Assembly: GCF_025144465.1 (NCBI RefSeq)
Contig: NZ_CP083553.1
Location: 1,672,001-1,736,000 of the forward strand
DNA from: Leisingera sp. S132
GTDB taxonomy: Bacteria; Pseudomonadota; Alphaproteobacteria; Rhodobacterales; Rhodobacteraceae
Direction: 5' to 3'
DNA length: 64,000 bases
The notes under the pieces are model-generated. The model searched no databases and was not told the DNA's origin. It was given only the letters and a program-made list of their open reading frames with translations. A program made the position numbers and the translations under genes. Numbering within the stretch: the first letter of the stretch is position 1; each line of letters starts with the position of its first letter. Positions 1,473 to 35,020 of this stretch are shown here, piece after piece.

Positions 1473-1500
1473 AGGAAGGTTTCGCAGAATGGGGAAAAAG

Positions 1501-1577
<77 letters not shown>

Positions 1578-1696
1578 GTTGTTAAGCCGGGGTATACCCG
1601 CGCTTGATTGCCTCTGCAACGGGAAAAACCGCCTGTTTCCAATTTCCTGCCATTCAGCGGATCAGGCGTGAACGGCATGGCAGCGTGCAAAAGAAA

Positions 1697-1721
1697 AAGC
1701 CTGCACCGGGTGGGCAGGCTT
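1697..1721 (-). terminator. rho-independent terminator of the MepK-like gene
   Basis: An 8-bp perfect stem (AAGCCTGC/GCAGGCTT) with a 9-nt loop lies 25 bases past the stop codon at 1746. On the minus strand it is followed by TTTTCTTTT. Confidence 0.8.
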
Positions 1722-1745
1722 GCATTCTTGCAATGGCTGATGGCG

Positions 1746-2662: not shown

Positions 2663-4291
2663 ATGACTCGTGCGATTGCAGGAAGCGTCTTGCCAGGGAT
2701 CAAAGCAGGGCTGTTTGCCCTGGCACTGGGCGGTTTGGCCGCCGGGTCTGTTTCCGGGTCAGCACAGGCTGAAGTTTCGGCAGCTTTCCGCCAAGCGGTC
2801 GCCGAGGCGGCTTACGGCAGCGACGCCGTCGCGGAATTCTACCGGAAAAACGGGTACCAGGCGATCTGGACCGGCCAGGATGACGCCTCTCTTCAGCGCC
2901 GCAATGCCCTTTTGGCAGCCTTGGGCGACACCCAGGCCCATGGCTTGCCGGACCGCTCTGCCGAGGTCAGCGCGCTGATCGAGCAGATGCGCAATGTGCG
3001 CACGACGCGTGACATCGGCAACGTTGAGGCCGCGCTGAGCCGGGCACTGGTCCAATATGCCACAGATTTGCAGACCGGACTGCTGGTTCCTTCGCAGATC
3101 GACGACGGCATGGTGCGCAAGAAACATTCCGTTGACGGGGCAACATTCCTGGCGGGGATCCGCGACGCCCAGCCATATTCTTATTTGCGCAGCCTGGTTC
3201 CGGCATCGCCGCAATACCGCGGGCTTATGCGGGAAAAACTGCGTTTGGAGCAGGTCATGGCTGCTGGCGGCTGGGGTCCGGCTGTGAACGCCAAGAAATT
3301 GGAGCGCGGCGATCAGGGGCCGGCAGTGGTTGCATTGCGCAACCGCCTGATGCTGATGGGCTATCTGCCGCGCAGCGCTGCGCGGACCTATGACGGGGCA
3401 ATGGAGAAGGCCGTGCAAAGCTTCCAGTCCGATCATGGTCTGGAAACAGATGGTGTGGCAGGAGCTGGCACCATTGATGAGATCAACAAACCGGTCAGTG
3501 CCCGGCTGAAGTCCATCATCATCGCGATGGAGCGGGAGCGCTGGCTGACGCCGGAGCGCGGCGAACGCCATATTTTGGTCAATCAGACCGATTTCACCGC
3601 CAAGATCGTCGACAATGGTGACGTGACTTTTGAAACCCGCTCGGTGATCGGCAAGAACACCCACGACCGCCGCAGCCCGGAGTTCTCAGACGAGATGGAG
3701 CATATGGTGATCAATCCGAGCTGGTATGTGCCGCGCTCGATCATCACCAAGGAATACCTGCCGAAGCTGCAGAACAACCCGAATGCCGTTGGCCACATCC
3801 AGATCACCGACAGCCGCGGCCGGGTGGTGAACCGCGGTTCTGCAGACTTCTCGCAATATACGGCGCGGAATTTTCCGTTCTCCATGCGTCAGCCCCCCAG
3901 CCGCAGCAACGCGCTGGGTCTGGTCAAATTCATGTTCCCGAACAAATACAATATCTATCTGCACGACACCCCGCAGAAGAGCCTTTTTGCCCGTGAGGTG
4001 CGCGCCTTTTCGCACGGCTGTATCCGTCTGGCTCAGCCGTTCGAATTTGCCTATGCGCTGCTGGCCAAGCAGACCGAAAACCCCAAGGATTTCTTTCACC
4101 GCATTCTGAATTCCGGCAAGGAAACCAAGGTCGAGCTTGAGACGAAGGTGCCGGTGCACATCATTTACCGGACCGCTGTGGTGTCCGGCAAAGGCCGCGC
4201 CGAATTCCGCCGGGATGTCTATGGCCGCGACGCCAAGGTCTGGGCTGCGCTGGAACGGGCAGGGGTGGTGCTGCCCAGCGTTCAGGGGTAA
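2663..4291 (+). CDS. L,D-transpeptidase, YcbB/LdtD family
   Basis: 542 residues. A signal peptide covers residues ~1-36. A scaffold domain follows, with a peptidoglycan-binding fold at ~205-275 (LERGDQGPAVVALRNRLMLM) and a YkuD catalytic domain at ~300-490. The catalytic signature SHGCIRL places the nucleophile at Cys453, with an upstream HDTPQKSLF capping-loop motif. The enzyme forms 3-3 (mDAP-mDAP) cross-links in periplasmic peptidoglycan. It is somewhat shorter than E. coli LdtD (615 aa). It is divergent from the MepK-like hydrolase that would cleave the same bond, and is followed within 40 bases by lpxD, linking wall and outer-membrane synthesis. The start is ATG 2663; an in-frame alternative was not evident. 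Confidence 0.92.
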   Translation: MTRAIAGSVLPGIKAGLFALALGGLAAGSVSGSAQAEVSAAFRQAVAEAAYGSDAVAEFYRKNGYQAIWTGQDDASLQRRNALLAALGDTQAHGLPDRSAEVSALIEQMRNVRTTRDIGNVEAALSRALVQYATDLQTGLLVPSQIDDGMVRKKHSVDGATFLAGIRDAQPYSYLRSLVPASPQYRGLMREKLRLEQVMAAGGWGPAVNAKKLERGDQGPAVVALRNRLMLMGYLPRSAARTYDGAMEKAVQSFQSDHGLETDGVAGAGTIDEINKPVSARLKSIIIAMERERWLTPERGERHILVNQTDFTAKIVDNGDVTFETRSVIGKNTHDRRSPEFSDEMEHMVINPSWYVPRSIITKEYLPKLQNNPNAVGHIQITDSRGRVVNRGSADFSQYTARNFPFSMRQPPSRSNALGLVKFMFPNKYNIYLHDTPQKSLFAREVRAFSHGCIRLAQPFEFAYALLAKQTENPKDFFHRILNSGKETKVELETKVPVHIIYRTAVVSGKGRAEFRRDVYGRDAKVWAALERAGVVLPSVQG

Positions 4292-31621: not shown

Positions 31622-32842
31622 ATGACCGATAAACCCGCCCTGCGCGCCAAGGATGCCCCGGATCTGGGCCGTTTCAACTGGGAAGACGCTTTGCGGCTTG
31701 AGGATCAGCTGACAGAGGACGAGCGCATGATCTCCGCCTCAGCCCGCGCCTATGCGCAGGAGAAGCTTCAGCCCCGCGTTCTAAGTGCCTATGAAAACGA
31801 GGAAACGGACCCGGAAATCTTCCGCGAAATGGGTGAGATGGGTCTCCTTGGCACCACAATTCCCGAAGAATACGGCGGGCTTGGCGGCGGCTATGTGTCC
31901 TATGGCCTGGTGGCCCGCGAGGTGGAGCGGGTCGACAGCGGCTACCGCTCGATGATGTCGGTGCAAAGCTCTTTGGTGATGTATCCCATCTATGCTTATG
32001 GCACTGAGGAGCAGCGTCAGAAATATCTGCCGAAACTGGCTTCCGGCGAGTGGATCGGCTGCTTTGGCCTGACCGAACCTGATGCCGGGTCAGACCCCGC
32101 CAGCATGAAAACCCGCGCGGAAAAAATTGAAGGCGGATATCGGCTTAAGGGGTCCAAGATGTGGATCTCCAACGCCCCGATCGCCGATGTTTTTGTGGTC
32201 TGGGCAAAGTCCGAGGCGCATGGCGGCAAGATCCGCGGCTTTGTGCTGGAGAAGGGCTTGAAGGGCCTGAGTGCGCCGAAGATCGAAAACAAAGCCTCGC
32301 TGCGGGCCTCCATTACCGGCGAGATCGTGATGGACGGCGTTGAAGTCGGCGAGGAAGCGCTGCTGCCGCATGTTGAAGGGCTGAAAGGGCCGTTCGGCTG
32401 CCTTAACCGTGCGCGCTATGGCATCAGCTGGGGCGCCATGGGCGCAGCGGAAGCCTGCTGGCACGCGGCACGCCAATACGGCCTGGACCGCACTCAGTTC
32501 GGCCGGCCGTTGGCCAACACCCAGTTGTTTCAGCTGAAACTGGCGAACATGCAGACCGAAATCACCCTGGGCCTGCAGGCGTCCCTGCGTGTTGGCCGGC
32601 TGATGGATGAAGCAAACGCCGCGCCTGAGATGATTTCCATCATCAAGCGCAATAACTGCGGCAAGGCGCTGGAGATTGCCCGGATTGCCCGTGACATGCA
32701 CGGCGGCAATGGCATCAGCCTGGAATTCAACGTGATCCGCCACATGGTGAACCTGGAGACCGTGAACACCTATGAGGGGACACACGACGTGCATGCACTG
32801 ATCCTGGGGCGCGCGCAGACCGGTTTGCAGGCCTTCTTCTGA
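31622..32842 (+). CDS. gcdH: glutaryl-CoA dehydrogenase
   Basis: 406 residues, acyl-CoA dehydrogenase fold. FAD-binding sequences are [16 protein letters not shown] and [16 protein letters not shown]. The catalytic glutamate lies in [10 protein letters not shown], and the [16 protein letters not shown] stretch is characteristic of GCDH. It oxidises and decarboxylates glutaryl-CoA to crotonyl-CoA in lysine, tryptophan and benzoate-type catabolism, passing electrons to ETF. GAGGTGA lies just before ATG 31622. The rest of the pathway is not in the window. Confidence 0.94.
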
Positions 32843-33425
32843 TAGCCGGGTCGCAGCGCGGAGACCGTTCCGCGCTGCATTTTTGCAGGATGGATTAGCG
32901 TTTTTGCAACCCTCGTTCTTGCTGGGAATTTTGCAAAGAGTTCCGGGCTATCCGCTTCGCCCGAAGTGGTTTTGAGGCGCAGGGCTCCTGTTAATGATTT
33001 GACAACCTGATGCCGCAGTTTTCGCAGCGGACATCGCGGTACAAGCGGGCTTTGAGTCAACGCGCGTTTCGGGCCTTGCAAAAAGTGGTGGTTGTTTACG
33101 ACAAGCAAGGAGATTGCCTTGCAGAAATGCAGATCACAAGTTTCGGATCAGTTTCCACAATGTGTCCTGCAATTTTGCAATGCAAATGAACACCAGTCCC
33201 ATCGAAGTTGGCGCATATTGCAATTATGCATTTTAGTTTTGCGTTTCTGACGTCGCTTTTTTTGCAGGGTATTTTACGCCATGCATCATTTCGTTTTGCA
33301 TTTCCTGGCGTCTTTACAACAGGTTAAGTGCTAGCCCAGGGAACCTCAAGGTTGAAGTTAAGAAAAATTTAGGAAATGGAAATCGAGGTGCATATGCGGT
33401 GCCGAAGCCGCTGGCCAAAGAAAAA
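32843..33425. other. 583-base non-coding gap with a dense TGCA motif array
   Basis: No credible ORF; the longest candidates are ~20 codons without a ribosome site. The DNA is much more A/T-rich than its flanks. TGCA occurs 15 times between 32876 and 33300. Four pairs are TGCA-N4-TGCA with A/T-rich spacers, starting at 32876, 33120, 33168 and 33219. Both flanking genes converge on this gap, so it is not an obvious promoter region for either. Confidence 0.6.
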
Positions 33426-33446
33426 CGGGCCGGAAAACCCGGCCCG
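33426..33446 (-). terminator. rho-independent terminator of the MttB-like gene
   Basis: An 8-bp stem (CGGGCCGG with CCGGCCCG) and 5-base loop, followed on the minus strand by TTTTTCTTT, 24 bases past the stop at 33470. Confidence 0.85.
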
Positions 33447-33469
33447 CTCCAAGATCATACAGGTCCGCG

Positions 33470-35020
33470 TCAGGCGGGCAGATGAATGTTGAATTCCTGA
33501 CGGATTGCCATGTCGGTTTCAGCGTCAAACCGGGCAGCAGCGCGTTCCGACAGGATCTTTTCCTTTTTGGCGATCGCTTTCTCGATCAGGTCGGGCTTGT
33601 CGCGCTCAGCCCATTCCTTGGGGGAGGTGCGGTCGCCAAGATCCGGGTACACGTAATCCACCTGCATCCGGCCTAGCGTCTGATCGGTGCCCAGGTAATG
33701 ACCCGGCCCGCCCAGGCAGGTGGCGCGCATCTGGTCGAGCGCGAGGGTTTCGTCGTTAACCTCAATACCGCGGACGCAGCGCTGCGCCTGGCCCAGCAGG
33801 TCATTGTCCAGGATCAGCGATTCCAGGCAGAAGCCAAGCAGAGAGGCGTGCATGCCAGCGGCCTCATAGACCATGTTGAGGCCCGAAAGACCCGCCATGA
33901 CGGCGGAACACATCTGCTCCCAGCCGGCCTGCATGTCCGGAAGTTTGGAATCGGAGGCCCCGGCTGCGGCACCACCCGGCAGATTGTAGAACTTGTGCAT
34001 CTGGGCGCAGCCGGCGGTCAGCAGGGCTTGCTCGCCTGAGCCAACGGTCATGGCGCCGGTGCGCAGGTCGAGGCCAAAGGGCCAGGTGCCAAAAATTGCG
34101 GGAGCGCCAGGCTTTACGGCATTTACATAAACCAGTCCAGCCAGGCATTCGGCAACCGCTTGGGTGATGGCCCCGGCAATGGTCGAAGGGGCCGTGGCGC
34201 CAGCCATGCCTGCGGACAGAAGAAGCACAGGCATGCCGCCTTTGATGCATTCTTCCATCACTTCACAGGACTCTGTGGCAAACTTCATGGGCGGAACCAC
34301 GAAGCAGTTGGAGTTGGAAACAAACGGGCGCTCTCGCCATTTGTCTTCGCCGCCTGCAATCATGTGCAGCAGTTCCAGACCGGGTTTCACAAATCCGGGT
34401 TCCGTGAAAGACACGCCAACGTGCTTGGTGGTGCCGGAAGTGCAGGCGTAGATGGAATTCAGGTCCATCTCGCAATTGTCGGGGATGTCGCGGCAAACCA
34501 TCGGGCGCTGAACAAAATGGATGTTGTCCAGCTGGTCGCAGATGCGGGCTGCGTCATGCAGATCCTGCACGGTGGAATCGCGGTAGTTCCTGCCTTGCAC
34601 ATCGACAACGCTGACCGCGGCGCCAGCGGTGCCATAGTGCACGCGGCCGCCTGACAGCTGCAGATCGTTTTTGCCATCGCGGCTGAAAAGGGTGACGGAG
34701 CGGTTTGCCCTGGCGATTGTGTCTTCCACAAGTGCGCGAGGGAAGCGGATTCGGCCGTCGTCGCCAAGTGAGCAGCCCGCGGCCGTCAGATAGTCGATCC
34801 CGCTCTGCGGAGCGTCGGCAAGGCCGATCTCTTCCAGCGCGGTGAGGGCGGCTTCATGGATCTTTTCCATGTCTGCTTGGCTTAGTATTTTGAGCGCGGT
34901 GGATTCCATGCCGGGGCGGACCGGACGCAGATGATCTGGCAGGGCGGCAGCACGGGCTGCACGGCGCGCATTACGCCCGCCGCTGCGGGTGGCGCGGGCA
35001 GGGGAGGCTTGGTCGTTCAT
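33470..35020 (-). CDS. trimethylamine methyltransferase (MttB) family protein, pyrrolysine-free
   Basis: 516 residues, full-length MttB family TIM barrel. Recognisable blocks are AGMAGATAPSTIAGAITQAV, YVNAVKPGAPAIFGTWPFGL and GCAQMHKFYNLPGGAAAGAS. No in-frame amber codon interrupts the frame, so it belongs to the non-pyrrolysine MttB superfamily, whose studied members (MtgB, MtpB, MtcB) demethylate glycine betaine, proline betaine or carnitine to a corrinoid protein. Roseobacters carry many paralogues with uncertain roles. The corrinoid protein partner is not adjacent. A small ORF and a palindrome lie upstream. The N-terminus is Arg/Ala-rich. Confidence 0.88.
   Translation of the reverse strand: MNDQASPARATRSGGRNARRAARAAALPDHLRPVRPGMESTALKILSQADMEKIHEAALTALEEIGLADAPQSGIDYLTAAGCSLGDDGRIRFPRALVEDTIARANRSVTLFSRDGKNDLQLSGGRVHYGTAGAAVSVVDVQGRNYRDSTVQDLHDAARICDQLDNIHFVQRPMVCRDIPDNCEMDLNSIYACTSGTTKHVGVSFTEPGFVKPGLELLHMIAGGEDKWRERPFVSNSNCFVVPPMKFATESCEVMEECIKGGMPVLLLSAGMAGATAPSTIAGAITQAVAECLAGLVYVNAVKPGAPAIFGTWPFGLDLRTGAMTVGSGEQALLTAGCAQMHKFYNLPGGAAAGASDSKLPDMQAGWEQMCSAVMAGLSGLNMVYEAAGMHASLLGFCLESLILDNDLLGQAQRCVRGIEVNDETLALDQMRATCLGGPGHYLGTDQTLGRMQVDYVYPDLGDRTSPKEWAERDKPDLIEKAIAKKEKILSERAAARFDAETDMAIRQEFNIHLPA

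Follow-up and report, generated by a model that had tools for sequence, protein, structure and literature searches.

The gap between two convergent genes of Leisingera sp. S132, at positions 32843-33469 (627 bp) of the window (the whole stretch of 64,000 nucleotides analysed here), contains a dense array of TGCA-based dyad sites that recurs across the genus, and, judging from sequence comparison, it is a real, conserved element that probably serves as a protein-binding platform. The best-supported single account, which is well short of certain and which we tentatively hold at somewhat less than even probability, is that this gap might act in cis as a double-stranded-DNA platform for a predicted protein at the ancestral locus of the chromosome terminus. 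Its left neighbour (31622-32842, plus strand) is an acyl-CoA dehydrogenase gene with Pfam Acyl-CoA_dh domains that is present in 21 of 21 genomes of the genus and is called gcdH here by resemblance, and its right neighbour (33470-35020, minus strand) encodes an MttB-family, trimethylamine methyltransferase-like protein (Pfam MTTB, 6.8e-114). Both genes end in the gap, as a previous reading made from the sequence only had stated, and each has a conserved intrinsic terminator there. The one of gcdH (32853-32878, plus strand) overlaps the first TGCA with its 3' arm and forms a conserved fold (alifold, -17 kcal/mol over 32843-32890), and the one of the MttB-like gene (33426-33441, minus strand) is a conserved fold as well.

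Sixteen copies of TGCA were counted in the gap (starting at 32876, 32884, 32905, 32932, 33077, 33120, 33128, 33168, 33176, 33181, 33219, 33227, 33263, 33282, 33297, and 33389), 15 of which fall within 425 bp, and four exact TGCA-N4-TGCA pairs start at 32876, 33120, 33168, and 33219. These numbers agree with the sequence-only reading, whose expectation of fewer than two copies was slightly low (2.2 per 425 bp from the TGCA density of the window itself) although the excess it claimed is real, and whose description of most single copies as TTTTGCA or TTGCAA holds only loosely. When the 627-bp gap was shuffled 2000 times with its dinucleotides kept, TGCA occurred 4.8 +/- 1.9 times (maximum 12) and the pair 0.03 times (maximum 2). 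Over the whole window the pairs were less striking (6 vs 2.35 expected, with 6 reached in 5 of 100 shuffles). The array stretch is the TGCA density peak for its size in the window and the surrounding 464 kb, and the gap holds 25.5 TGCA per kb against 5.3-5.7 in 159 other gaps sampled from the same genome (160 gaps of at least 100 bp, from the window and 20 stretches of 20 kb, delimited with a simple home-made gene caller), so the motif is far from equally frequent in all A/T-rich gaps. By gap type, the values were 5.4 for convergent (n=34), 5.7 for divergent (n=46), and 5.3 for tandem gaps (n=79), and coding DNA had 4.6. Second in density among sampled gaps of at least 200 bp was another convergent gap of the window (1473-1745), with five TGCA in 273 bp including one TGCA-N4-TGCA pair.

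The form with an A/T-only centre, TGCA-WWWW-TGCA, occurs three times in the 4.69-Mb genome, and every copy lies inside this gap. All three are among the seven genome-wide copies of TGCRWWWWYGCA; TGCANNNNTGCA has 86 copies, and a looser pattern of three TGCA has 518 matches. Among the matches listed, which stop short of the genome's end, TGCA-N4-TGCA also clusters near 2.86 and near 2.96 Mb; these two clusters were set aside, as none of their pairs has an A/T centre throughout.

The gap was extracted and aligned in 20 of the 21 Leisingera genomes. The remaining genome (G007, locus L065) was left out because a several-hundred-base insertion, after about position 3200 of that locus, lies to the right of a CtrA-box-like element, between it and mttB; its array is undisturbed, with 8 TGCA in 650 bp. 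Pooled over the 20 gaps, TGCA occurs 227 times (103 +/- 9 in shuffles) and TGCA-N4-TGCA 33 times (0.9 in shuffles), individual gaps having 8 to 16 TGCA and 0 to 4 exact pairs. The paired TGCA is one class within a broader, partly degenerate group of YGCR-N4-YGCR sites, which occupy nine aligned positions, S1 to S9. Counting as full any YGCR-N4-YGCR within 6 bases of the aligned position, site S1 (TGCATTTTTGCA, 32876-32887) is full in 18 of 20 gaps, and S2 (32897-32908), 21 bp past S1 and degenerate in S132 (AGCG-N4-TGCA), in 11. S3 (TTTTGCAAAG, 32929-32938) is a single site that is a full pair in none of the 20, its GCAA columns being at least 95% alike. At S4, represented by the single TGCA at 33077-33080 (CTTGCAAAAA), a full pair lies nearby in 1 of 20 gaps, and a loose test finds a half site in 15. 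S5 (TGCAGAAATGCA, 33120-33131), S6 (TGCAATTTTGCA, 33168-33179), and S7 (TGCAATTATGCA, 33219-33230) are full in 7, 9, and 13 gaps, respectively. S8 (33240-33251), 21 bp past S7 and with a degenerate right half in S132, is full in 5, with TTGC columns (33239-33242) at least 95% alike; S9 (TTTTTTGCAGG, 33263-33266) has a full pair nearby in 5, and its TGCA columns reach the same level, as do the TG columns of a further single TGCA (TTTTGCAT, 33297-33300). By the loose test, a half site is found in 15 to 20 of the 20 gaps at all nine positions. Many sites are thus kept at the same positions in relatives although the sequence between them has diverged strongly, which runs against the earlier concern that the pairs might not be conserved.

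The whole array (about 455 bp, 32876-33330) combines near-constant length with diverged sequence in the 20 genomes. Its successive segments measure 69-70, 102-106, 71-72, and 208-214 bp at pairwise differences of 0.43-0.62 per site, and nearly all of the 50 columns (of 455) that are at least 95% alike belong to site cores, a GTTAA block, or the CtrA-like box. Among start-to-start spacings of TGCA up to 60 bp, 8 is the most frequent (33 times), followed by 21 (18), 35 (17), 48 (16), and 13 (13). The adjoining segment 33331-33425, in contrast, varies from 63 to 205 bp. The ratio of indels to substitutions in the array (0.026) is not clearly below the values upstream of mttB in a nine-genome control (0.044 and 0.020), and the argument from constant length therefore mainly rests on the contrast with 33331-33425. 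From these alignments, we consider a real constraint on length to be suggested, not proven.

A second motif is interspersed with the dyads. GTTAAC occurs 31 times in the 20 Leisingera gaps against 1.6 in shuffles. In S132, GTTAAT stands at 32990-32995 (plus strand), where several relatives have GTTAAC, and GTCAA at 33056-33060 (plus strand), where 18 of 20 genomes have GTTAA. The right edge of the near-constant-length segment is formed by a CtrA-box-like element (TTTACAACAGGTTAAG, 33313-33328, plus strand), TTAA-N7-TTAA with one mismatch in S132 and in 19 of 20 genomes overall and perfect in the remaining one. The consensus TTAA-N7-TTAAC is quoted for CtrA in a study of D. shibae, whose predicted CtrA sites lie in promoter regions (PMC4046655, in part). 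The TTWA-N7-TTAA-like element and the GTTAA motifs resemble such boxes, whereas the array differs from the D. shibae sites in lying in a convergent gap at a probable ancestral dif locus. The GTTAA motifs may be read by CtrA.

Several observations concern whether duplex DNA, RNA, or a protein product is the functional form. Sites with mixed arms occur 13 times as TGCG..TGCA and 14 times as TGCA..CGCA in the 20 gaps. In RNA, the first form would keep a G-U pair and the second would break the pair, whereas in duplex DNA the two are equivalent. Their equal frequency is as expected for symmetric duplex DNA, and a hairpin reading of TGCA-N4-TGCA was rejected on these counts. A coding reading was likewise dropped, as no ORF is common in position to the 20 gaps. 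No match to Rfam at gathering score and no sigma-70-like promoter were found in the gap. When sliding windows on both strands were folded with alifold, the only strong conserved folds were the two terminators (-12 to -17 kcal/mol), windows outside them giving 0 to -2.9 kcal/mol. The whole array gave -6.5 (plus strand) and -2.6 kcal/mol (minus strand), against about 0 in column shuffles (plus strand 0.0, n=20); this energy, weak but not zero, probably stems from the palindromes themselves. A single-sequence fold of the whole gap including the terminators had a z score of -4.4. In sum, the sites are symmetric and neither a conserved ORF nor a strong RNA fold accompanies them, which points to double-stranded DNA as the form that a protein binds. 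Two origin readings were rejected: for iterons of plasmids or phages, there was no plasmid match and a single phage match at chance level (E 0.5), and for a chromosome origin, dnaA lies at the contig start and GC skew places the terminus, not the origin, nearby.

A related array is present in the nearest genus, where 600 bp after gcdH in seven genomes contain 19 YGCR-N4-YGCR sites (3.7 in shuffles), 8 TGCA-N4-TGCA pairs (0.2), 54 TGCA (33), and 19 GGTTAA (0.8), with one copy of the latter on the other strand. This suggests that the array predates both its adjacency to mttB and an inversion described below. Paired sites 21 bp apart were found in 2 of the 7 genomes (L220 and L222), and the layout is unlike that of Leisingera, indicating that spacing is conserved within but not between genera. 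No comparable array was seen at the other 28 sampled loci, which have 0 to 7 TGCA in the first 650 bp, these counts being wrong for L038 and L048, where the gcdH stop was set inside the gene. TGCA-rich flanks at L031 (7), L040 (7), and L041 (6 TGCA, 650 bp after gcdH) were rejected, the copies being mostly in long ORFs and 700 bp being free of GTTAA.

The sequence-only reading made no connection between the array and dif, and it is the position of dif that suggests a terminus locus. In S132 (G000), the array lies at 1.705 Mb, cumulative GC skew has its maximum at about 1.768 Mb, and the 464 kb scanned have their best dif candidate at 1,769,433 (minus strand), about 64 kb from the array; no dif was found within the gap. 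In 9 of 28 loci from other genera (the best-scoring 30 gcdH loci minus that of S132 and one from the nearest genus; for L038 and L048, the search started inside the gene), a dif-like site in the same orientation follows 61-545 bp past the gcdH stop (L026, L027, L029, L030, L033, L034, L036, L045, and L049, nine sampled genera of the family). Five of the seven genomes of the nearest genus have one after the array, 648-660 bp past the stop in four and 766 bp in the fifth. Positive loci scored 15-18 of 19, the remaining 19 loci scored 12 or less, the other two genomes from the nearest genus scored 11 and 12, and the maximum in 300 random 1.5-kb stretches of the S132 genome was 14. It is possible that dif directly after gcdH is a synteny marker of the terminus.

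Genes that follow dif in other genera map, for 4 of 6 queried loci (L026, L030, L036, and L045; not L029 and L034), to 1.764-1.769 Mb in S132, inverted and beside its dif, and in the nearest genus the same holds for 1 of 4 genomes queried (L224, but not L220, L222, and L223). This layout is best explained by an inversion with its breakpoint between array and dif, which in Leisingera probably carried dif about 60 kb off while the array remained. Of 21 Leisingera genomes, 17 gave a dif-like match, on the contig of gcdH in 14 and on another contig in 3, and 4 gave none. The distance between gcdH and dif is 57-65 kb in 12 of these 14 genomes, about 107 kb in G009, and 12 kb in G017 (by subtraction); dif is inverted relative to gcdH in the 12 and in G009 and in the same orientation in G017. 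The locus of the array is therefore a probable ancestral dif locus on the flank of the chromosome terminus that is still terminus-proximal. Weaker dif-like matches with 1-2 mismatches, mostly on other contigs, were also observed (G001:C20, G004:C6, G005:C2 and C3, G011:C21, G016:C390, and G019:C7), and these perhaps belong to chromids or plasmids.

The proposed mechanism starts from the dyad YGCR-N4-YGCR sites with A/T-rich centres, some pairs of which lie 21 bp (about two helical turns) apart, with GTTAA(C) interspersed and a CtrA-box-like element at the end. A dimeric DNA-binding protein would occupy the dyads, cooperatively where two sites are 21 bp apart, and the filled array might form a single ordered complex by which the terminus is marked, paired, or tethered in segregation or division, in the way of terminus-binding proteins. 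The suggestion in the sequence-only reading of a cooperative platform for a regulator or nucleoid protein gains from the conserved dyads, the 21-bp repeats, the near-constant spacing, and the duplex symmetry as far as a platform is concerned, cooperative binding being a putative part of it. A more specific form of the proposal, which we find possible but rather unlikely as a whole, is a compact terminus platform of Rhodobacterales, centromere- or matS-like, at the dif locus, to which a dedicated protein, perhaps a ZapT/MerR one, would bind together with CtrA and which would couple the terminus to the cell cycle and the divisome. Several facts weigh against the terminus reading. A comparable array is missing from the 28 loci of other genera, and for three of four queried nearest-genus genomes the gene past dif has no counterpart position beside dif of S132. 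Full sites are absent at several positions in many genomes (present at S5 in 7, S6 in 9, and S8 and S9 in 5 of 20). The array, moreover, did not follow dif but remained beside gcdH, and 12 of the 14 genomes that could be measured have kept it about 60 kb from dif; close coupling of the two is therefore no requirement, and a role on the gcdH side is possible.

To our knowledge, the marking of the chromosome terminus in alphaproteobacteria is poorly known, and a short, genus-wide array with defined sites, lying at a probable ancestral dif locus, offers a direct bait for a terminus protein in roseobacters. Should the array instead regulate a metabolic gene or a hidden transcript, this bait would serve to find the regulator. 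Among the papers listed for ter, dif, or MatP in either alphaproteobacteria or roseobacters, none described the array in its title or in the abstract shown, and searches with the written motif forms gave matches for the TGC-N6-GCA form only. The matS sites of Enterobacteria and Vibrio are scattered over a large region, and their motif is unrelated to that of the array. In this system, specific sites at the terminus serve a protein of their own, with MatP bound to matS inside ter (PMC7394560, in part), and the array, about 64 kb from both the dif candidate and the GC-skew maximum, likewise lies in the terminus region. However, its sites are packed in 455 bp, and TGCA-WWWW-TGCA is confined to this gap rather than spread over the terminus domain. 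MatP itself is conserved only in Enterobacteriaceae and Vibrionaceae according to the part of PMC7188993 available to us. DNA in vesicles of D. shibae is enriched at dif (PMC7901474, in part).

MerR operators have the form GTAC-N4-GTAC, with the same spacing of half sites as in the array, which is a lead and not a test. A ZapT-type MerR protein is one candidate binder, ZapT of the Caulobacter crescentus ZapT-ZauP-ZapA system being an alphaproteobacterial terminus-binding protein of the MerR family. Others have taken the ihfA-merR arrangement as the mark of ZapT homologues (PMC7188993, in part), and such a gene pair is present in S132, where a himA match (E 1.3e-48) adjoins a MerR-family frame on the same strand (L226). 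This frame, with at least 578 codons, greatly exceeds Caulobacter ZapT in length, Gly113 to Gly141 being the C terminus of the latter according to the part of PMC7858052 available to us. Caulobacter ZapT sites were reported to be mostly in ORFs, and a consensus was not found, as stated in the available part of PMC7188993.

Among other explanations, a metabolic regulator of the LysR, ScfR/RamB, CRP/FNR, or TetR type could act on gcdH or mttB from downstream, or be titrated by the array, an explanation that we regard as unlikely although several observations favour it. After the inversion the array remained beside gcdH, and doublets of TGCA-N4-TGCA occur near regulator genes elsewhere (18 positive genomes among 295, S132 excepted; nine loci scanned for ORFs, five read). 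Two lie between divergent LysR and aldehyde dehydrogenase (mmsA-like by reading) genes in each of two genera (L201 and L213, about 1501-1554), where they are likely LysR operators given this setting, and in a third genus two lie upstream of the gene for ScfR, a short-chain fatty acyl-CoA regulator (L218, 1501-1534). For the LysR protein HpdR, from Pseudomonas putida, the site proposed is GTGC-N6-GCAC, an inverted repeat with a TGC-N6-GCA core (PMC5431877, in part). Together with this site, the three doublet loci indicate that other regulator families can have sites of such form. The TGC-N6-GCA repeat is found 76 times in the 20 gaps, the next best spacing 32 times. However, the HpdR operator is one site at the promoter of one catabolic gene, flanked as TGTGC-N6-GCACA and without an array (PMC5431877, in part), and at the locus studied here the LysR gene lies on the other side of gcdH. 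The conserved gcdH/LysR promoter region contains no TGCA-N4-TGCA pairs, for which reason GcdR/LysR was rejected as the owner of the array. Conserved terminators end both flanking genes, and, with TGCA-WWWW-TGCA nowhere else in the genome, no regulon with exactly that site is visible.

For the ScfR/RamB family, the half sites are TTGCAAA-like, with TTTGCAAA as core. This core has 9 copies in the 20 gaps against the 227 of TGCA, which leaves the earlier mention of RamB/ScfR as a possible owner unsupported, while the different spacing it suspected in that family was confirmed. Apart from the N4 doublet upstream of the ScfR gene, the likeness ends there: RamB class 2 operators have two boxes with an 18-bp spacer at a promoter (PMC10370305, in part), whereas the array has N4 spacing, many sites, and no promoter. 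The corresponding start-to-start distance of 26 (an 8-bp box plus 18) occurs only twice in the 20 gaps, and the gap is convergent with terminators on both sides.

It is also conceivable, at a probability that we again put low, that the gap serves as operator region for a small RNA or a very small gene, unannotated and transcribed from inside it, under the control of a many-site regulator and of CtrA at TTWA-N7-TTAA. Dyad operators next to a conserved CtrA-like box are typical of a promoter region, and the weak alifold energy on the plus strand fits such a product. The negative results described above for Rfam, sigma-70-like promoters, conserved ORFs, and strong folds beyond the two terminators argue against it, as does the loss of constant length beyond the CtrA-like box, and the small-RNA control region proposed in the sequence-only reading has thus received little positive support.

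Less probable by far is an origin of the array in accessory sequences of Xer/dif recombination, of which the Leisingera array would be a relic. ArgR/PepA sites play the accessory part at plasmid cer, the dif-like site of the nearest genus sits after the array, and near-constant spacing would fit an ordered synapse; against a relic, many sites are still kept genus-wide though dif of Leisingera is usually about 60 kb away. A compositional accident can practically be dismissed, for even if the gap is A/T-rich for this genome (GC 50% vs 61%), the dinucleotide shuffles, the 159 other gaps, and the positional conservation in 20 genomes refute it.

Two further observations were made at this locus. 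An Rfam match to PYLIS_3, the pyrrolysine insertion element of mttB, was found at 33859-33958 of the window (minus strand; score 40.1 vs gathering 38). The MttB-family ORF around it has no in-frame stop, suggesting that it is probably a homologous but non-pyrrolysine gene. In addition, a record titled Nocardioides marinus strain DP1N28-1 (JAHVJD010000001.1, L081) carries a Leisingera-type gcdH-array-mttB locus, with GcdH 97% and MttB 87% identical, so that its title looks wrong.
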